Below are positions 21,576 through 29,309 of a stretch of 64,000 nt of DNA, in pieces. Below the pieces are notes generated by a model. It ran no database searches. It had not been told where the DNA came from and saw only the letters and a list, made by a program, of their open reading frames with translations. The translations under genes were made by a program, and so were the position numbers. Origin of the DNA: Parahoeflea alexandrii (GTDB lineage: Bacteria > Pseudomonadota > Alphaproteobacteria > Rhizobiales > Rhizobiaceae); contig NZ_JAAAML010000004.1 of assembly GCF_024105735.1 (NCBI RefSeq), positions 434,001-498,000 of the forward strand. The letters are read 5' to 3'. Numbering within the stretch: position 1 is the stretch's first letter; every line of letters starts with the position of its first letter.

Positions 21576-21668
21576 GCGTCCGAGTCTGCGCCCGGCACCG
21601 GCCGGGCGGCGAGAGGGCCCATGGAGTCTTGGGGGCCCTCACCCAAACCGAACAAAAGGATACCAGCC

Positions 21669-23540: not shown

Positions 23541-23939
23541 CTACCAGGAGCGCACGTCCATGACGTGGTCGCGATGGTTGGGGTGAGCGCTGAAGACGTA
23601 GATCCGGTGCAGTTCCTTGTCGTTGAGCAACCGCAGGAAGCGCACTTCGACCGTGTTGTTGGTGTAGGTGCGGGTCAGCACGCAGCCGACGCTGGAAATC
23701 CGCGCCTCGGGAACATCGAGATTGAATTCCTGCGGCAGCTTGAACTGGGTCAGGATACCGAGAACGGCGCTGGCCGGCGAAATGCCGATCAGCTGGCAGC
23801 GGCGCGACGCCATGTGCATGACGCCCTTCTCGGTGTATTCGATCCGGGCTTCATTCATTGTTTCTTCCATCTTGTACCTGACCTCGCGGTCGTACATGAA
23901 GGATTCTTCTCTCTGCAGATAGTTTGTCCCCGCAGCCAT
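23541..23939 (-). CDS. PilZ-like domain protein
   Basis: A 132-aa cytoplasmic protein. The ATG at 23939 has AGGGGAA at good spacing; the open frame runs 23 codons further but lacks support. Residues ~45-60 (ASRRCQLIGISPASAVLGI) resemble the PilZ core, where an arginine-rich start precedes a (D/N)xSxxG element. The aspartate and glycine of that element are altered, so c-di-GMP binding is uncertain. It lies alone, divergent from the secreted-protein array. Confidence 0.6.
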   Translation of the reverse strand: MAAGTNYLQREESFMYDREVRYKMEETMNEARIEYTEKGVMHMASRRCQLIGISPASAVLGILTQFKLPQEFNLDVPEARISSVGCVLTRTYTNNTVEVRFLRLLNDKELHRIYVFSAHPNHRDHVMDVRSW

Positions 23940-24219
23940 GTAACGTTCCCCTTGTTCCTGGCCCCATCCCCGGTGGCCATGTGTTTTCAATGGAACCCAC
24001 GATAGCACTGGAAGATTAACGGATCATGATCGCGAGGCGGTCTAAGTATCTGATTTTAATCATTTAAGGCAGATCTAAAGAACGATTCCTGCTGCATTTC
24101 GCGCTTCTGCGCATCGGTCAAGACGCAGGCATAAACTGACCGCAAGGATTGCAAAGGGCGAGCGATCCGGTTGAGAACCTCGCTCAAAGGCTCTGATCCG
24201 GCCCCGCGAGAGACTTCAA
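23940..24219. promoter_or_regulatory. PilZ-gene upstream region
   Basis: Non-coding DNA before the PilZ-like gene, AT-rich around 24040-24070. It joins the array leader described next. No gene is seen. Confidence 0.35.
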
Positions 24220-24705
24220 AACCGGCTGGAAACAAGACGTATTTTAATCACATGCCGTAAAGACCGATCACGCGTTCGTGAGAAGCCGTGAGAATGGCCT
24301 TTCCCGGGATCACGGGCCAACCCAAGCCGAGAAAAATGGCGCATTTTCCTCGATGTGGGAAACCGCCGAAATCCGGGCTTTCAAGTTTCCTGACAGTGCG
24401 GAATTGTGAACGGTGCATGACAGTCCGGGTTGACGCGAAATCCGGTCATCACAGCCGGCACCCGAATCTATCCATCTGATATATAACGATAAAAATAGTT
24501 CCCTGACAAAATGCCCCATGGCTTTGTCACGCCATGATCGCATGCCGATCACATCCATGTGTTTCGCAAGTCATCTGCCGCAGGCCCATCTCTGGTTCAT
24601 CGAAACGGCGCGGCCCGCTCAGCCGATCGGACAATGATCAACGGGCCACCGTTTCAGACCAGATCAACGACCAACAGTCCTAACCGACACACAAGGATGA
24701 ACACG
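24220..24705 (+). promoter_or_regulatory. Long leader of array block 1
   Basis: About 480 bp of non-coding DNA before the first array gene, related along its length to the leader at 26600-27082. Shared landmarks in the same order are GTATTTT(A/C)ATCAC near 24239, CCGATCACGCGTT near 24262, GCCGTGAGA near 24284, GGATTGTGAACGGTG-like sequence near 24401, an AT-rich patch at 24477-24510, and AAGTCATC...ACGGCGCGGCCCG at 24568-24617. GATCAC occurs three times. The AT-rich patch may be the promoter, which would leave a ~200-nt 5' UTR. Confidence 0.6.
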
Positions 24706-24933
24706 ATGAACAAGATGATTATGGCCCTCGGCCTGACCCTCGCTGCCTCCACCGGCGCTTTCGCACAGTCGCCCAACGACTGGGTTGAACTCAACGCACC
24801 GGTGCACGGCCCGGCAGCCGAAGCCCATGCAGCGCAGAGCGCACAGGGCGGCATCGACTACACCGCAACCGCTTCGTTCGACCGCGCTCAGGAAACCAAG
24901 AAGGGTTACACCGAGCTGCAGTTCAACCGCTAA
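24706..24933 (+). CDS. Array copy 1 (type A): small secreted protein
   Basis: A 75-aa protein. It has a Sec signal peptide of 20 residues (MNKMIMALGLTLAASTGAFA, cleavage AFA-QS) and a 55-aa cysteine-free mature part starting QSPNDWVELNAPVHGPAA. Type A differs from type B in the middle (AEAHAAQSAQGGIDY) and near the end (SFDRAQETKKGYTELQFNR). The mature part is slightly acidic. AAGGA lies 9 bp before the ATG. It is the first of seven tandem paralogues; I recognise no family. Periplasmic or secreted location follows from the signal peptide; function is unknown. Confidence 0.85.
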   Translation: MNKMIMALGLTLAASTGAFAQSPNDWVELNAPVHGPAAEAHAAQSAQGGIDYTATASFDRAQETKKGYTELQFNR

Positions 24934-24942
24934 TCGCCATAC

Positions 24943-24978
24943 GGGATGAAGGCGGGCACCTCCAGCCGGCTTCATCCC
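24943..24978 (+). terminator. Hairpin after array copy 1
   Basis: GGGATGAAG (24943-24951) pairs with CTTCATCCC (24970-24978), extended by further GC pairs. There is no U-tract. Similar GATGAAGCCGG hairpins follow copies 2, 3 and 5, so this is a conserved part of the repeat unit, likely an mRNA 3' stabiliser or processing site. Confidence 0.5.
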
Positions 24979-25156
24979 CCGCCGCGGTGGCAATCGAAAG
25001 GGCACTGAAACTTTTTCTCCAGCCCCAACGTTCTGCAGACCATGGCCTTCAAAAAGATCATCGAGATGGCGCAGGCCGGACACAGCTTCAACAAGCAGTC
25101 CGCCGGTTCCCCGCTCGCGACCAAGACATCGAACTAAGACCAAAAGGACCAACACA

Positions 25157-25396
25157 ATGAACAAGATCATCATCGCACTCGGCCTGACCCTTGCAGCCTC
25201 CACCGGCGCCTTCGCACAGTCGCCCAACGACTGGGTTGAACTGAACGCACCGGTCCACGGCCCGGCCGCCATGGAACATGCCGCAAAGAGCGACATGGGC
25301 GGCGTCGATTATACCGCAACCGCTTCAACCGTCCGTACGCCTTCGACCGACAATCCGGAACAGAACGGCTACACCGCGCTGCAGTTCAACCGCTAA
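25157..25396 (+). CDS. Array copy 2 (type B): small secreted protein
   Basis: A 79-aa protein with the signal peptide MNKIIIALGLTLAASTGAFA and a 59-aa mature part. Type B signature: AMEHAAKSDMGGVDYTATAS, then TVRTPSTDNPEQNGYTALQF and a final NR. AAAGGACC precedes the ATG. The protein differs from copy 3 at one residue (Ile5 versus Leu5), which indicates very recent duplication or gene conversion. The 223-bp spacer before it resembles the spacer between copies 5 and 6. Confidence 0.85.
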   Translation: MNKIIIALGLTLAASTGAFAQSPNDWVELNAPVHGPAAMEHAAKSDMGGVDYTATASTVRTPSTDNPEQNGYTALQFNR

Positions 25397-25408
25397 CAGC
25401 GGCATCCC

Positions 25409-25447
25409 GCGGATGAAGCCGGGCTCCTCCCAACCGGCTTCATCCGC
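25409..25447 (+). terminator. Hairpin after array copy 2
   Basis: GCGGATGAAGCCGG (25409-25422) pairs perfectly with CCGGCTTCATCCGC (25434-25447), a 14-bp stem. No U-run follows. The same hairpin follows copy 3. Confidence 0.6.
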
Positions 25448-25504
25448 CGCCGGACCGCAAACCGAAGACCCCGGTCTTCACCCAATCACGAAAGGACTAC
25501 CCAA

Positions 25505-25744
25505 ATGAACAAGATTCTTATCGCCCTCGGCCTGACCCTCGCAGCCTCCACCGGTGCCTTCGCACAGTCGCCCAACGACTGGGTCGAGCTGAACGCACCG
25601 GTCCACGGCCCGGCCGCCATGGAACATGCCGCAAAGAGCGACATGGGCGGCGTCGACTACACCGCGACCGCTTCCACCGTCCGTACGCCTTCGACCGACA
25701 ACCCGGAACAGAACGGCTACACCGCGCTGCAGTTCAACCGCTAA
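25505..25744 (+). CDS. Array copy 3 (type B): small secreted protein
   Basis: A 79-aa protein, almost identical to copies 2 and 4, with the same signal peptide (MNKILIALGLTLAASTGAFA) and mature type-B sequence. AAAGGA lies 8-9 bp before the ATG. The spacer to copy 2 is 108 bp and is nearly repeated between copies 3 and 4. The shared spacer, hairpin and coding sequence define a ~349-bp repeat unit. Confidence 0.85.
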   Translation: MNKILIALGLTLAASTGAFAQSPNDWVELNAPVHGPAAMEHAAKSDMGGVDYTATASTVRTPSTDNPEQNGYTALQFNR

Positions 25745-25756
25745 CAGCGGCATCCC

Positions 25757-25795
25757 GCGGATGAAGCCGGGCTCCTCCCAACCGGCTTCGTCCGC
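25757..25795 (+). terminator. Hairpin after array copy 3
   Basis: GCGGATGAAGCCGG (25757-25770) pairs with CCGGCTTCGTCCGC (25782-25795). The one base change relative to the copy-2 hairpin still allows a G-U pair, so the stem is kept. Confidence 0.6.
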
Positions 25796-25853
25796 CTGAG
25801 GACCGCAAACCGAAGACCACTGGTCTTCACCCCAGCATGAAAGGACTACCACA

Positions 25854-26093
25854 ATGAACAAGATTCTTATCGCACTCGGCCTGACCCTCGCAGCTTCCAC
25901 CGGCGTCTTCGCACAGTCGCCCAACGACTGGGTCGAACTGAACGCACCGGTGCACGGCCCGGCCGCCATGGAACATGCCGCAAAGAGCGACATGGGCGGC
26001 GTCGACTACACCGCAACCGCTTCCACCGTCCGTACGCCGTCGACCGACAATCCGGAACAGAACGGCTACACCGCGCAGCAGTTCAACCGCTAA
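25854..26093 (+). CDS. Array copy 4 (type B): small secreted protein
   Basis: A 79-aa type-B protein. It differs from copy 3 at two positions: Ala18 to Val in the signal peptide (STGVFA) and Leu to Gln near the end (GYTAQQFNR instead of GYTALQFNR). The Leu-Gln change alters an otherwise invariant C-terminal motif. It is the last copy of block 1 and is followed by a true U-run terminator. AAAGGA precedes the ATG. Confidence 0.85.
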   Translation: MNKILIALGLTLAASTGVFAQSPNDWVELNAPVHGPAAMEHAAKSDMGGVDYTATASTVRTPSTDNPEQNGYTAQQFNR

Positions 26094-26173
26094 GGACGCA
26101 CGAAAGGCTGTTGCCGGGTTCCTCCCACCGGCATCAGCCCGTTCGGACTCCCCTTCCGAACGTTCCTTGCAAG

Positions 26174-26202
26174 ATGCCCCGGTCGACGACCGGGGCATTT
26201 TT
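26174..26202 (+). terminator. Intrinsic terminator closing array block 1
   Basis: ATGCCCCGGTC (26174-26184) and GACCGGGGCAT (26188-26198) form a perfect 11-bp stem, followed by a run of five T (26198-26202). It is the first U-run terminator after copy 1, so copies 1-4 are probably one transcription unit. Confidence 0.85.
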
Positions 26203-26599
26203 CGTTTGCGGGCTCCCCGCTTCGCCGCTGACATGATCGGCGCTGCCCAAGCCGGCTTCTGATGACCGGCCGCACAGCAAAGCGCGGCAAATGCCTGCTC
26301 ACTTGGCGCGTTGCGTGACCGCGATCCCGCAGACGCCCAGAGCGCCCCCAAATCGCACAGACCGGCGCCGGCCCTGGGCTGGCGTTCAGAACTGCCATGT
26401 CCCCCACTCTTCCTTTCTACCGACCCAAGCTTGTGTCCGGCAATGGACAGTCAACGGCCCGCACAGCCGCCGCCCCATCCCGGTCATTGTTGTGCGGCTC
26501 CGGCCATTTCGGCTGGCGCCTGGCGCTTCATCCGGGCCGAACTAGCGAGGCGGCGAAGGCGGCTTGCGACCTGAAAACGGGTGCGGTCAGGCAGGAATA
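26203..26599. other. Spacer between array blocks, no gene recognised
   Basis: About 400 bp between the block-1 terminator and the block-2 leader. Short open frames exist but none has a signal peptide, known domain or convincing ribosome site. I see no further array copy. Confidence 0.4.
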
Positions 26600-27082
26600 G
26601 ATCGTATTTTCATCACTTCCGGTCGAGGCCGATCACGCGTTGCGTGAACGGCCGTGAGAGCGCCTGGCGCGGGCCTCAAGGCGGGCGAAAAGGTGGAAAA
26701 TTTCTGCAAAATCGACGCCCGCAGGGAAGCCCGGATTTCCGGGGTTTCGAGAGCGCAGCAAGCGCCGGATTGTGAACGGTGAGGGTGTGCCACGGTTGAC
26801 GCCGGTCGCGCACCACGTATCGAAATCTCAACCTAACTCATTGTATTTATTAATTAAAACTTGCCTCTTCGATCGGATCAGTCGCGCTGGATCACGTTTT
26901 CATCCCCTGGCGATCACGGCCATGTGGTTCGTAAGTCATCCGGGCCCAGCCTATCTCTTGGTCATCGGAACGGCGCGGCCCGGACAGCAGATCGGCAGAC
27001 GATCCCCGGGTCACCGCTCCAGACCAAGTTGAACATGAACTGTCGAAACAGACACACAAACCGAAACACAAGGAAGACCACA
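26600..27082 (+). promoter_or_regulatory. Long leader of array block 2
   Basis: About 480 bp before copy 5, homologous to the leader of copy 1, with landmarks in the same order: GTATTTTCATCAC near 26603, CCGATCACGCGTT near 26630, GCCGTGAGA near 26651, GGATTGTGAACGGTG near 26767, AT-rich TTGTATTTATTAATTAAAAC near 26842, and AAGTCATC...ACGGCGCGGCCCG at 26933-26983. GATCAC occurs three times. Conservation of non-coding DNA at this length implies a function, either promoter with operators or a structured leader RNA. Confidence 0.6.
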
Positions 27083-27310
27083 ATGAACAAGATCATCATC
27101 GCCCTCGGCCTGACCCTCGCAGCCTCCACCGGCGCATTCGCACAGTCCCCCAACGACTGGGTTGAACTGAACGCACCGGTCCACGGCCCGGCTGCCGAAG
27201 CCCATGCCGCACAGAGCGCCCAGGGCGGCATCGACTACACGGCGACCGCCTCGTTCGACCGCGCTCCGGAAACCAAGAAGGGTTACACCGAGCTGCAGTT
27301 TGACCGCTGA
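27083..27310 (+). CDS. Array copy 5 (type A): small secreted protein
   Basis: A 75-aa type-A protein, closest to copy 1. The signal peptide is MNKIIIALGLTLAASTGAFA and the mature part begins QSPNDWVELNAPVHGPAAEA. It ends GYTELQFDR, with Asp in place of the Asn of all other copies. AAGGAAG lies about 7 bp before the ATG. It opens block 2 behind its own leader, mirroring copy 1 in block 1. Confidence 0.85.
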   Translation: MNKIIIALGLTLAASTGAFAQSPNDWVELNAPVHGPAAEAHAAQSAQGGIDYTATASFDRAPETKKGYTELQFDR

Positions 27311-27326
27311 GGCCGGCCACGAGGGA

Positions 27327-27356
27327 ATGAAGCCGGGCACCTCCAGCCGGCTTCAT
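27327..27356 (+). terminator. Hairpin after array copy 5
   Basis: ATGAAGCCGG (27327-27336) pairs with CCGGCTTCAT (27347-27356), extended by G-C pairs outside. It is the same hairpin type as after copies 1-3. There is no U-run. Confidence 0.55.
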
Positions 27357-27519
27357 CCCCCGCCGCAGGGGCAGACAAAAGAGACGTGAAACTTTTTTCC
27401 AAGCCCGCCCGTACTGCTCATATGACCTTCGAACACGGGTCATGAAAACGGAGCGCCCCGGACACGGATCGCACCCTTCAGACCAAACAATTGAACCAGA
27501 CACACAAAGGAACAAGACC

Positions 27520-27756
27520 ATGAACAAGATCATCATCGCCCTCGGCCTGACGCTTGCAGCCTCCACCGGCGCCTTCGCCCAGTCACCCAACGATTATGTC
27601 GAACTGAACGCTCCGGTCCACGGCCCGGCCGCAGAAGCCTATGCCGCAAAGAGCGCCATGGGCGGCGTCGACTACACCGCAACCGCCTCCACCGTCCGCA
27701 TCCCTTCGACCGACAACCCTGCCAACGGTTACACCGCACTGCAGTTCAACCGCTAA
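27520..27756 (+). CDS. Array copy 6 (type B'): small secreted protein
   Basis: A 78-aa protein with the same signal peptide. Type B' differs from B by Tyr for Trp (NDYVELN), AEAYAAKSAMGG in the middle and STVRIPSTDNPANGYTALQF near the end, one residue shorter. The AEA before YAAK recalls type A, so this copy may be a mosaic. AAAGGA precedes the ATG. The 209-bp spacer from copy 5 is related to the copy 1-2 spacer. Confidence 0.85.
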   Translation: MNKIIIALGLTLAASTGAFAQSPNDYVELNAPVHGPAAEAYAAKSAMGGVDYTATASTVRIPSTDNPANGYTALQFNR

Positions 27757-27764
27757 GCCGGCCT

Positions 27765-27806
27765 GAGGGAAAAGGGGCCCGGGCGTTGACCATCGGGCCT
27801 CTCCCT
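27765..27806 (+). terminator. Imperfect hairpin after array copy 6
   Basis: The purine-rich arm around GAGGGAAAAGGGGCCCG faces CGGGCCTCTCCCTT, giving an imperfect long stem. Its sequence differs from the other array hairpins but the position is the same, so structure rather than sequence seems kept. Confidence 0.4.
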
Positions 27807-27857
27807 TCCCGCAACCACACTCACACAGCTTAACCAGACACACAAAGGAACAAGACC

Positions 27858-28094
27858 ATGAACAAGATCCTCATCGCCCTCGGCCTGACCCTCGCAGCTT
27901 CCACCGGCGCCTTCGCCCAGTCGCCCAACGACTATGTCGAACTCAACGCACCGGTTTACGGCCCGGCCGCTATCGAACATGCCGCAAAGAGCGCCATGGG
28001 TGGCGTCGACTACACCGCGACCGCTTCGACTGTGCGCATTCCCTCGACCGACAATCCGGCGAACGGCTACACCGCACTGCAGTTCAACCGCTAA
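27858..28094 (+). CDS. Array copy 7 (type B'): small secreted protein
   Basis: A 78-aa type-B' protein. The signal peptide is MNKILIALGLTLAASTGAFA and the mature start is QSPNDYVELNAPVYGPAAIE, where Tyr replaces the His found in every other copy (PVHGP to PVYGP). It ends GYTALQFNR. The AAAGGAACAAGACC context before the ATG is identical to that of copy 6. Last gene of the array, closed by a bidirectional terminator. Confidence 0.85.
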   Translation: MNKILIALGLTLAASTGAFAQSPNDYVELNAPVYGPAAIEHAAKSAMGGVDYTATASTVRIPSTDNPANGYTALQFNR

Positions 28095-28170: not shown

Positions 28171-28202
28171 AAAAAGCCCCGACCGAAAGGCCGGGGCTTT
28201 TT
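28171..28202. terminator. Bidirectional terminator between the array and aglK
   Basis: AAAAAGCCCCG (28171-28181) and CGGGGCTTTTT (28192-28202) form a strong stem with T-runs on both strands. It ends the array from the left and the agl operon from the right. Confidence 0.9.

Positions 28203-28220: not shown

Positions 28221-29309
<1,089 letters not shown>

Follow-up and report, generated by a model that had tools for sequence, protein, structure and literature searches.

Within a 64,000-nt stretch of the Parahoeflea alexandrii genome (contig NZ_JAAAML010000004.1, positions 434,001 to 498,000; hereafter the window), we analysed a tandem array of seven small genes, which an original prediction made from the sequence alone had described as encoding near-identical exported proteins of no recognised family. 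Six of the seven genes were found to be followed, 9-13 nt past the stop codon, by a hairpin of 10-15 bp carrying CCUCC, an anti-Shine-Dalgarno (aSD) motif, in its loop, so that the array probably gives rise to a regulatory RNA in addition to its proteins. For the more specific reading, in which the array consists of bifunctional modules that each combine an exported microprotein with an aSD hairpin in the 3′ untranslated region (3′UTR) acting in trans, we judge the chances to be about even. As summarized in Table 1, the seven genes (copies 1 to 7) look like two operons, formed by copies 1-4 and copies 5-7.

Folding of the 3′ flanks placed a hairpin behind every gene, with the CCUCC loop in six of the seven. 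In the predicted local folds, the CCUCC was unpaired at 0.99-1.0 in all six hairpins, whereas of 47 further CCTCC occurrences on the plus strand of the window approximately 11% exceeded 0.8. The motif was then counted in the 3′ flanks of the wider protein family to which the seven genes belong. Under a strict rule (at least 8 pairs, at most one mismatch, and CCTCC entirely inside a loop of at most 14 nt), 22 of 50 family flanks qualified. The rule was also satisfied by 10 of 1998 tiles of the window, by 30 of 2000 dinucleotide-shuffled sequences and by 4 of the 121 flanks taken from long open reading frames (ORFs), two of these four being family members; a loose rule gave 29 of 50 family flanks and 48 of 1998 tiles. 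When no selection for pairing was applied, CCTCC was situated inside a hairpin of at least 10 bp in 26 of the 31 family flanks having CCTCC within their first 65 nt, and in 15 of the 96 other CCTCC in the window. On the strength of the tile, shuffle, long-ORF and unpairedness controls, an origin of the hairpins by chance in GC-rich DNA was rejected. The earlier view that nothing else nearby explains the array was accordingly not sustained, and since a conserved aSD hairpin accompanies six of the seven genes, the number of copies may be as much a matter of RNA dose as of protein dose.

The hairpins themselves are conserved. Among 22 aligned hairpins, 8 of the 14 pairs had changed on both sides, with 38 cells against 11.6 after shuffling; because the aligned rows had been chosen for pairing, this covariation was regarded as supporting evidence rather than proof. 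The stems varied between species with pairing kept, and the loop was fixed; at L009:5387-5506 and L009:5775-5894, a relative has enlarged loops, one holding two CCTCC and the other at least three, on a neighbour-like stem. A covariance model of the hairpin (R1 in Table 1), with which the best 150 candidates per genome were scored, detected in the P. alexandrii genome the six array hairpins at E ≤ 8.6e-9, all of them training rows; the match ranked after them had E = 0.008 and lacked CCTCC in the stretch inspected. In 18 genomes of the genus (taken to be Hoeflea), some of which had supplied training rows, every one of the 32 matches at E ≤ 1e-6 was located within 250 nt 3′ of a same-strand family gene, as were 38 of 39 at E ≤ 1e-4 and 42 of 53 at E ≤ 0.01; two of the 11 non-adjacent matches at the last threshold represented the opposite strand of array hairpins. 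All six matches at E ≤ 1e-5 in the genomes G771, G773 and G780 adjoined family genes, and the loci checked there (L168, L169 and L174) contributed no training rows and have hairpins with CCTCC.

These own-genome and genus scans did not support a dispersed repeat element. A looser pattern, CCGG-CCTCC-CCGG, occurred at 20 genome sites, five of them in the array, versus nine for the reversed control, and is thus not specific by itself. That the hairpin is a repeat with no function of its own, carried along as the gene duplicates and undergoes gene conversion, appears highly unlikely to us: the array copies are duplicated at the DNA level, as self-comparison revealed, and some hairpins are nearly identical, but no match at E ≤ 1e-6 was located away from the family among the best 150 candidates of each of the 18 genomes, and the stems change between species, with pairing kept, around a fixed loop.

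The array ORFs are real coding genes under strong purifying selection on the protein, as is evident from the concentration of changes at third codon positions and from low ratios of nonsynonymous (dN) to synonymous (dS) divergence. Copies 2-3, 3-4 and 2-4 are 1, 2 and 3 residues apart, in agreement with their predicted near-identity; copies 2 and 3 differ at 12 codons, and copies 1 and 5 at 18 codons and 4 residues, the codon differences between copies being mostly at the third position. For 17 genes, comprising those of the window and of three relatives (L009, L010 and L011), mean dN/dS values over 136 comparisons were 0.03/0.44 in the signal peptide and 0.16/0.56 in the mature part, and those of the DYTATAS segment were 0.00/0.91 over 120 scorable comparisons. 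Most of what had been predicted for the proteins was confirmed: the seven ORFs are located where they had been placed, no Cys occurs in any of them, and they share the near-identical signal peptide MNKIIIALGLTLAASTGAFA, varying at residues 4-6 and by A18V in copy 4. No eighth copy was found elsewhere in the genome (next match E = 0.47).

The proposal of an exported protein of unknown family likewise held. With all seven copies, searches of Pfam and NCBIfam gave nothing above the curated cut-offs (best NCBIfam value 0.05, far under its cut-off); the four copies (of seven) compared with PHROGs had no match there, and a profile search of PDB sequences returned as its best a chance-level match to OmpU (0.11, residues 1-37), so that a known protein family was rejected. 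The signal peptide is of the classical Sec type by eye, and AlphaFold2 provided no confident fold (pLDDT 53, pTM 0.14, 23 aligned sequences), scores which fit a short disordered protein but do not prove disorder; the exported microprotein is probably disordered.

A comparison of copy number among relatives showed the family in 17 of the 18 genus genomes, with 89 matches including partial ones and 1-14 per genome; among family loci with named records, 12 are labelled Hoeflea and one is an unclassified alphaproteobacterial metagenome-assembled genome. The invariant skeleton described for the seven proteins was upheld within the window, but genus-wide the part kept comprises the signal peptide and the (G)(I/V)DYTATAS core, and NDLVSYDRAGNDGSP modules replace the NAPVHGPAA of the window in many other Hoeflea proteins. 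One genome contains two arrays of closely similar genes approximately 1.5 Mb apart (G046:C1:3584574-3586828 and 2044972-2046169), in which some gene and hairpin pairs score equally. At the level of the order, 28 of 397 genomes matched the protein at E ≤ 0.01; judged from the match table, those outside the genus mostly covered the signal peptide or a short stretch only, and three such loci that were opened (L107, L117 and L120) had no DYTATAS gene among the ORFs listed and were not counted as members. Clear DYTATAS proteins outside the genus were found in four genomes of two genera (L028, L029, L031 and L032, of which only L032 has an aSD-loop hairpin), and a divergent one in L030.

A second conserved motif, UCCUCCCAAGAC, precedes start codons in sister arrays and is borne by some of the family matches that lack a model hairpin. 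It was present in 21 distinct contexts in the loci, 18 of which are situated 33-43 nt before a recognised family start; in L030 and L032 it stands before divergent family genes by eye, and in L091 it is unrelated. Loci with the motif 5′ of family genes are L013, L016, L018, L021, L025, L037, L042 and L044, and further L077, L141, L146, L159, L160 and L174. Among 61 distinct genes with both flanks known, 43 have at least one of the two elements, the 5′ motif or, under the loose rule, the 3′ hairpin, as do 13 of 15 genes for window-type proteins, and none of the six other-genus genes of L028, L029 and L031 has either. The position of the motif before the 18 starts, together with its absence before the gene that opens each of the L016, L025 and L037 arrays, as for an intercistronic element, would suit a control in cis, whereby the intergenic CCUCC, by pairing with the Shine-Dalgarno sequence (SD) of the following cistron or by handling ribosomes, sets translation within the operon. 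We nevertheless regard such a control as quite unlikely, because hairpins in the window stand behind the final genes (copies 4 and 7) too, where the operon has no downstream cistron, because 4 of 15 NDLVSY-type genes scored as first or single have the 5′ motif (700 nt upstream scanned), and because the array leaders, which carry AAGGA and in none of seven cases GGAGG, pair weakly with the loops (-5.2 to -9.2 kcal/mol, against a median of -10.2 for the 50 window ORF starts considered below).

The alpha-r14/cuckoo RNAs are characterized by hairpins of hypervariable stem with an unpaired aSD loop (PMC3927594; PMC10746234; PMC7143759), and the NfeR1/alpha-r14 hairpin RNAs act by aSD pairing to SDs (PMC10746234; PMC7143759). 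The array hairpins resemble alpha-r14, NfeR1 and the SmelA075 cuckoo RNA in the unpaired aSD loop (six of seven genes), and the alpha-r14/cuckoo RNAs in stems that vary freely with pairing kept, among rows selected for pairing. Cuckoo RNAs, however, are compact and consist of three or four hairpins with CCUCCUCCC in each, whereas in the array each protein gene has a single hairpin, neighbouring ones are hundreds of bases from each other, and separate terminator-like hairpins close the operons; its best loops are GCUCCUCCC, and two loops are GCACCUCC. No window match reached the gathering score in Rfam, the array having sub-gathering matches only (best E = 0.17), and a known Rfam RNA was rejected. 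On account of the single hairpins, the incomplete 9-mer and the lack of an Rfam match, the array is not a member of the classical cuckoo family; by its structure, it may work as cuckoo RNAs do, its host genes being of a third kind.

The CcsR1-4 RNAs of Rhodobacter sphaeroides are processed by RNase E from the 3′UTR of the DUF1127 gene ccaF1, and DUF1127 genes with CcsR-like RNAs are a common association in Alphaproteobacteria, the 'CIN1' loci (PMC8625941; PMC10253847). Loci joining a small protein and an aSD RNA are already recognised as a kind; the array has a different host gene and layout. Its hairpin resembles CcsR in standing just behind a small-protein gene and before a terminator-like hairpin, and would be transcribed as part of the 3′UTR. 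CcsR carries an aSD loop, too. The two differ in that four CcsR RNAs follow one small RNA-binding protein of the DUF1127 type, whereas in the array each of several Sec-exported proteins, without Pfam match, has a hairpin of its own. In the open-access literature searched, neither the protein motif nor arrays of this type nor small RNAs of Hoeflea were found described; the paper defining the cuckoo/CIN loci, which is outside that coverage, may list them.

Besides the array, the P. alexandrii genome possesses an ordinary CIN1-like locus resembling ccaF1-CcsR1-4, since a small RNA of three hairpins with CTCCTCCC loops (C1:1724842-1724931, minus strand; L136/L137) is positioned between two DUF1127-like genes, one of them confirmed by Pfam (2e-14). 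Two further CTCCTCCC-loop hairpins were seen at C9:123963-124018 (minus strand; L138), behind an ORF resembling an ATP-binding cassette (ABC) transporter ATPase. Across the wider taxonomic family, 33 of 121 genomes, including that of P. alexandrii and G046, had a match to the hairpin model at E ≤ 0.01. Twelve out-of-genus matches were inspected, of which four are aSD clusters of the cuckoo type and three are single CCTCC hairpins. The clusters, with three aSD hairpins in L079, L081 and L085 and two in L083, are located some tens of bases behind phasin-like genes (Phasin_2 by Pfam in L081 and L085), and a 3′UTR origin is possible for them. The DUF1127-cuckoo locus and these phasin-cuckoo loci of other genera share with the array the placement of aSD hairpins beside or behind a protein gene, but have two or three hairpins side by side and other host genes.

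Regarding possible targets, loop pairing was calculated for 50 window ORF starts, which were picked mechanically and selected for SD strength, some of them surely not being genes, with a median of -10.2 kcal/mol. The best pairing (-17.5) was that of GGGGGAGGAG, the SD of the downstream neighbour of the array, which we take by similarity to be the alpha-glucoside transporter gene aglK; in a separate scan, the stretch before the ATG at 21621 was lower still (-21.5), with pairing beyond the plain SD. All seven Hoeflea aglK leaders read (the window, L009, L012, L014, L015, L017 and L182) contain GGGAGG.

Several observations weigh against a trans-acting aSD RNA. The hairpin of copy 6 lacks the motif, the hairpins occur one per gene and never three or four in a row, and the full 9-mer CCUCCUCCC is absent from the window loops, CUCCUCCC being the longest part present. 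The covariation is partly circular, and 5 of the 12 out-of-genus model matches inspected had no CCTCC at all, so that weak matches reflect the stem no less than the loop. Among aglK relatives from other genera, GGGAGG was also found in 7 of the 16 leaders that could be read (8 with L184, whose start was misread; 12 of 30 loci were unreadable), and as the SD match is not specific, aglK was rejected as a specific target and remains a candidate, not a demonstrated one. In the genus, moreover, 42 of the 89 family matches have a model hairpin and 47 do not, and 3 of the 17 family-bearing genomes have no model match beside a family gene.

The 47 matches without a model hairpin, together with the strong selection on the protein, would be expected if the array served the dose of an abundant exported microprotein, its hairpins protecting 3′ ends or marking processing and their loop being incidental. 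Moreover, all 11 aSD-negative flanks of L013, L016, L018, L021, L025 and L037 carry a hairpin of at least 10 pairs with another loop, a count given with no background rate, and a 3′ hairpin may thus be commoner than the aSD. This explanation seems unlikely to us, since a mere stabiliser would need no CCUCC, whereas CCTCC was kept while the stems changed and was even multiplied within two loops, and UCCUCCCAAGAC was kept before start codons in sister arrays.

The layout of the array is operon-like, and transcription as two units would be consistent with it. The upstream regions of both putative operons, approximately 480 nt long and related to each other, align with the pre-array regions of L009, L010 and L012, and the same elements were recognised by eye in L014, L015 and L017. 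Both blocks also show TCACG/CGTGA inverted motifs, ATTGTGAACG and a promoter-like core at fixed spacing. Patterns built from the two upstream elements matched the genome with zero mismatches at these two sites only, as built; since the remaining 12 and 8 sites each had three mismatches (reversed controls, 10 and 2), the two-element scan revealed no third intact copy of the region. The ccaF1-CcsR promoter is of the RpoHI/RpoHII type (PMC10253847). By analogy, and from its consensus, an RpoH (heat-shock-type) promoter was considered for the upstream block, and is not claimed. Neither operon-end hairpin was listed by a simple consensus terminator scan.

The array site is conserved between aglK and a gene we take, likewise by similarity, to be edd: the edd-type gene is upstream in the window, L009, L010, L012, L014, L015 and L017, and aglK is downstream in the same loci apart from L010, which ends within the array. 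A 155-aa ORF between edd and the array (23541-24008, minus strand), with a similar ORF at the same place in L014, had no Pfam match at E ≤ 0.1. Other copies occupy a second type of locus (L013, L016 and L018), beside what we presume to be response-regulator and kinase genes and an EptA-like membrane protein, a neighbourhood which suggests a link to the envelope.

Table 1. Positions of the array genes, hairpins and flanking features in the window
Feature	Position	Strand	Basis
Copy 1, 75 aa exported microprotein	24706..24933	+	ORF list, copy comparison
Copy 2, 79 aa exported microprotein	25157..25396	+	ORF list, copy comparison
Copy 3, 79 aa exported microprotein	25505..25744	+	ORF list, copy comparison
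Copy 4, 79 aa; final gene, operon 1	25854..26093	+	ORF list, copy comparison
Copy 5, 75 aa; opening gene, operon 2	27083..27310	+	ORF list, copy comparison
Copy 6, 78 aa	27520..27756	+	ORF list, copy comparison
Copy 7, 78 aa; final gene, operon 2	27858..28094	+	ORF list, copy comparison
aSD hairpin after copy 1, loop GCACCTCCAG	24943..24978	+	Fold; model R1 E=2.7e-9, training row
aSD hairpin after copy 2, loop GCTCCTCCCAA	25410..25446	+	Fold; model R1 E=1.2e-12, training row
aSD hairpin after copy 3, loop GCTCCTCCCAA	25758..25794	+	Fold; model R1 E=7.8e-12, training row
aSD hairpin after copy 4, loop GTTCCTCCCA	26105..26140	+	Fold; model R1 E=8.6e-9, training row
aSD hairpin after copy 5, loop GCACCTCCAG	27324..27359	+	Fold; model R1 E=2.0e-10, training row
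Hairpin after copy 6, without aSD loop (exception)	27773..27802	+	Fold
aSD hairpin after copy 7, loop GCTCCTCCCAA	28106..28142	+	Fold; model R1 E=8.5e-9, training row
Conserved upstream region, operon 1	24238..24705	+	Self-alignment, alignment to relatives, pattern scans
Operon 1 upstream element TGTGTTTCGCAAGTCATC	24558-24575	+	
Operon 1 upstream element TCATCGAAACGGCGCGGCCC	24597-24616	+	
Conserved upstream region, operon 2	26603..27082	+	Self-alignment, alignment to relatives, pattern scans
Operon 2 upstream element TGTGTTTCGCAAGTCATC	26923-26940	+	
Operon 2 upstream element TCATCGAAACGGCGCGGCCC	26962-26981	+	
Terminator-like hairpin and T run, operon 1 end	26171..26201	+	Fold
Terminator-like hairpin and T run, operon 2 end, between array and aglK	28171..28202	+	Fold
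aglK-like ABC-transporter ATPase (name by similarity), convergent neighbour	28221..29309	-	ORF list, leader pairing

Considering these features together, we propose that two polycistronic mRNAs, covering copies 1-4 and copies 5-7, would be made from related promoters, and that each module would comprise a small, Sec-exported and probably disordered protein followed by a 3′UTR hairpin displaying CCUCC(C). The strong hairpins may survive, or may be cut out of the 3′UTRs, as happens to the Rhodobacter CcsR1-4 through RNase E, and would then pair in trans with the strong SDs (GGGAGGAG) of other mRNAs, mainly those for transporters. Such pairing would lower translation of the targets while the microprotein goes to the envelope, and gene amplification would raise the dose of RNA and protein alike. 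A more far-reaching version, which we offer tentatively and consider somewhat unlikely, holds that these are genus-wide dual-output genes whose hairpins, mimicking the 16S tail and in some cases bearing repeated CCUCC, would act as a dosage-tuned brake on strong-SD translation, set by copy number, with the exported protein as the partner signal on the envelope side.

The array bears on the question of why cuckoo-type RNAs, which are common in Rhizobiales, accompany particular protein genes. Here, the strong hairpins are confined to the neighbourhood of a single protein family and recur dozens of times within one genus, and the host protein is fast-changing and exported, with a fixed signal peptide and DYTATAS core. 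The contribution of the host gene to the RNA thereby becomes directly testable in culturable marine bacteria.

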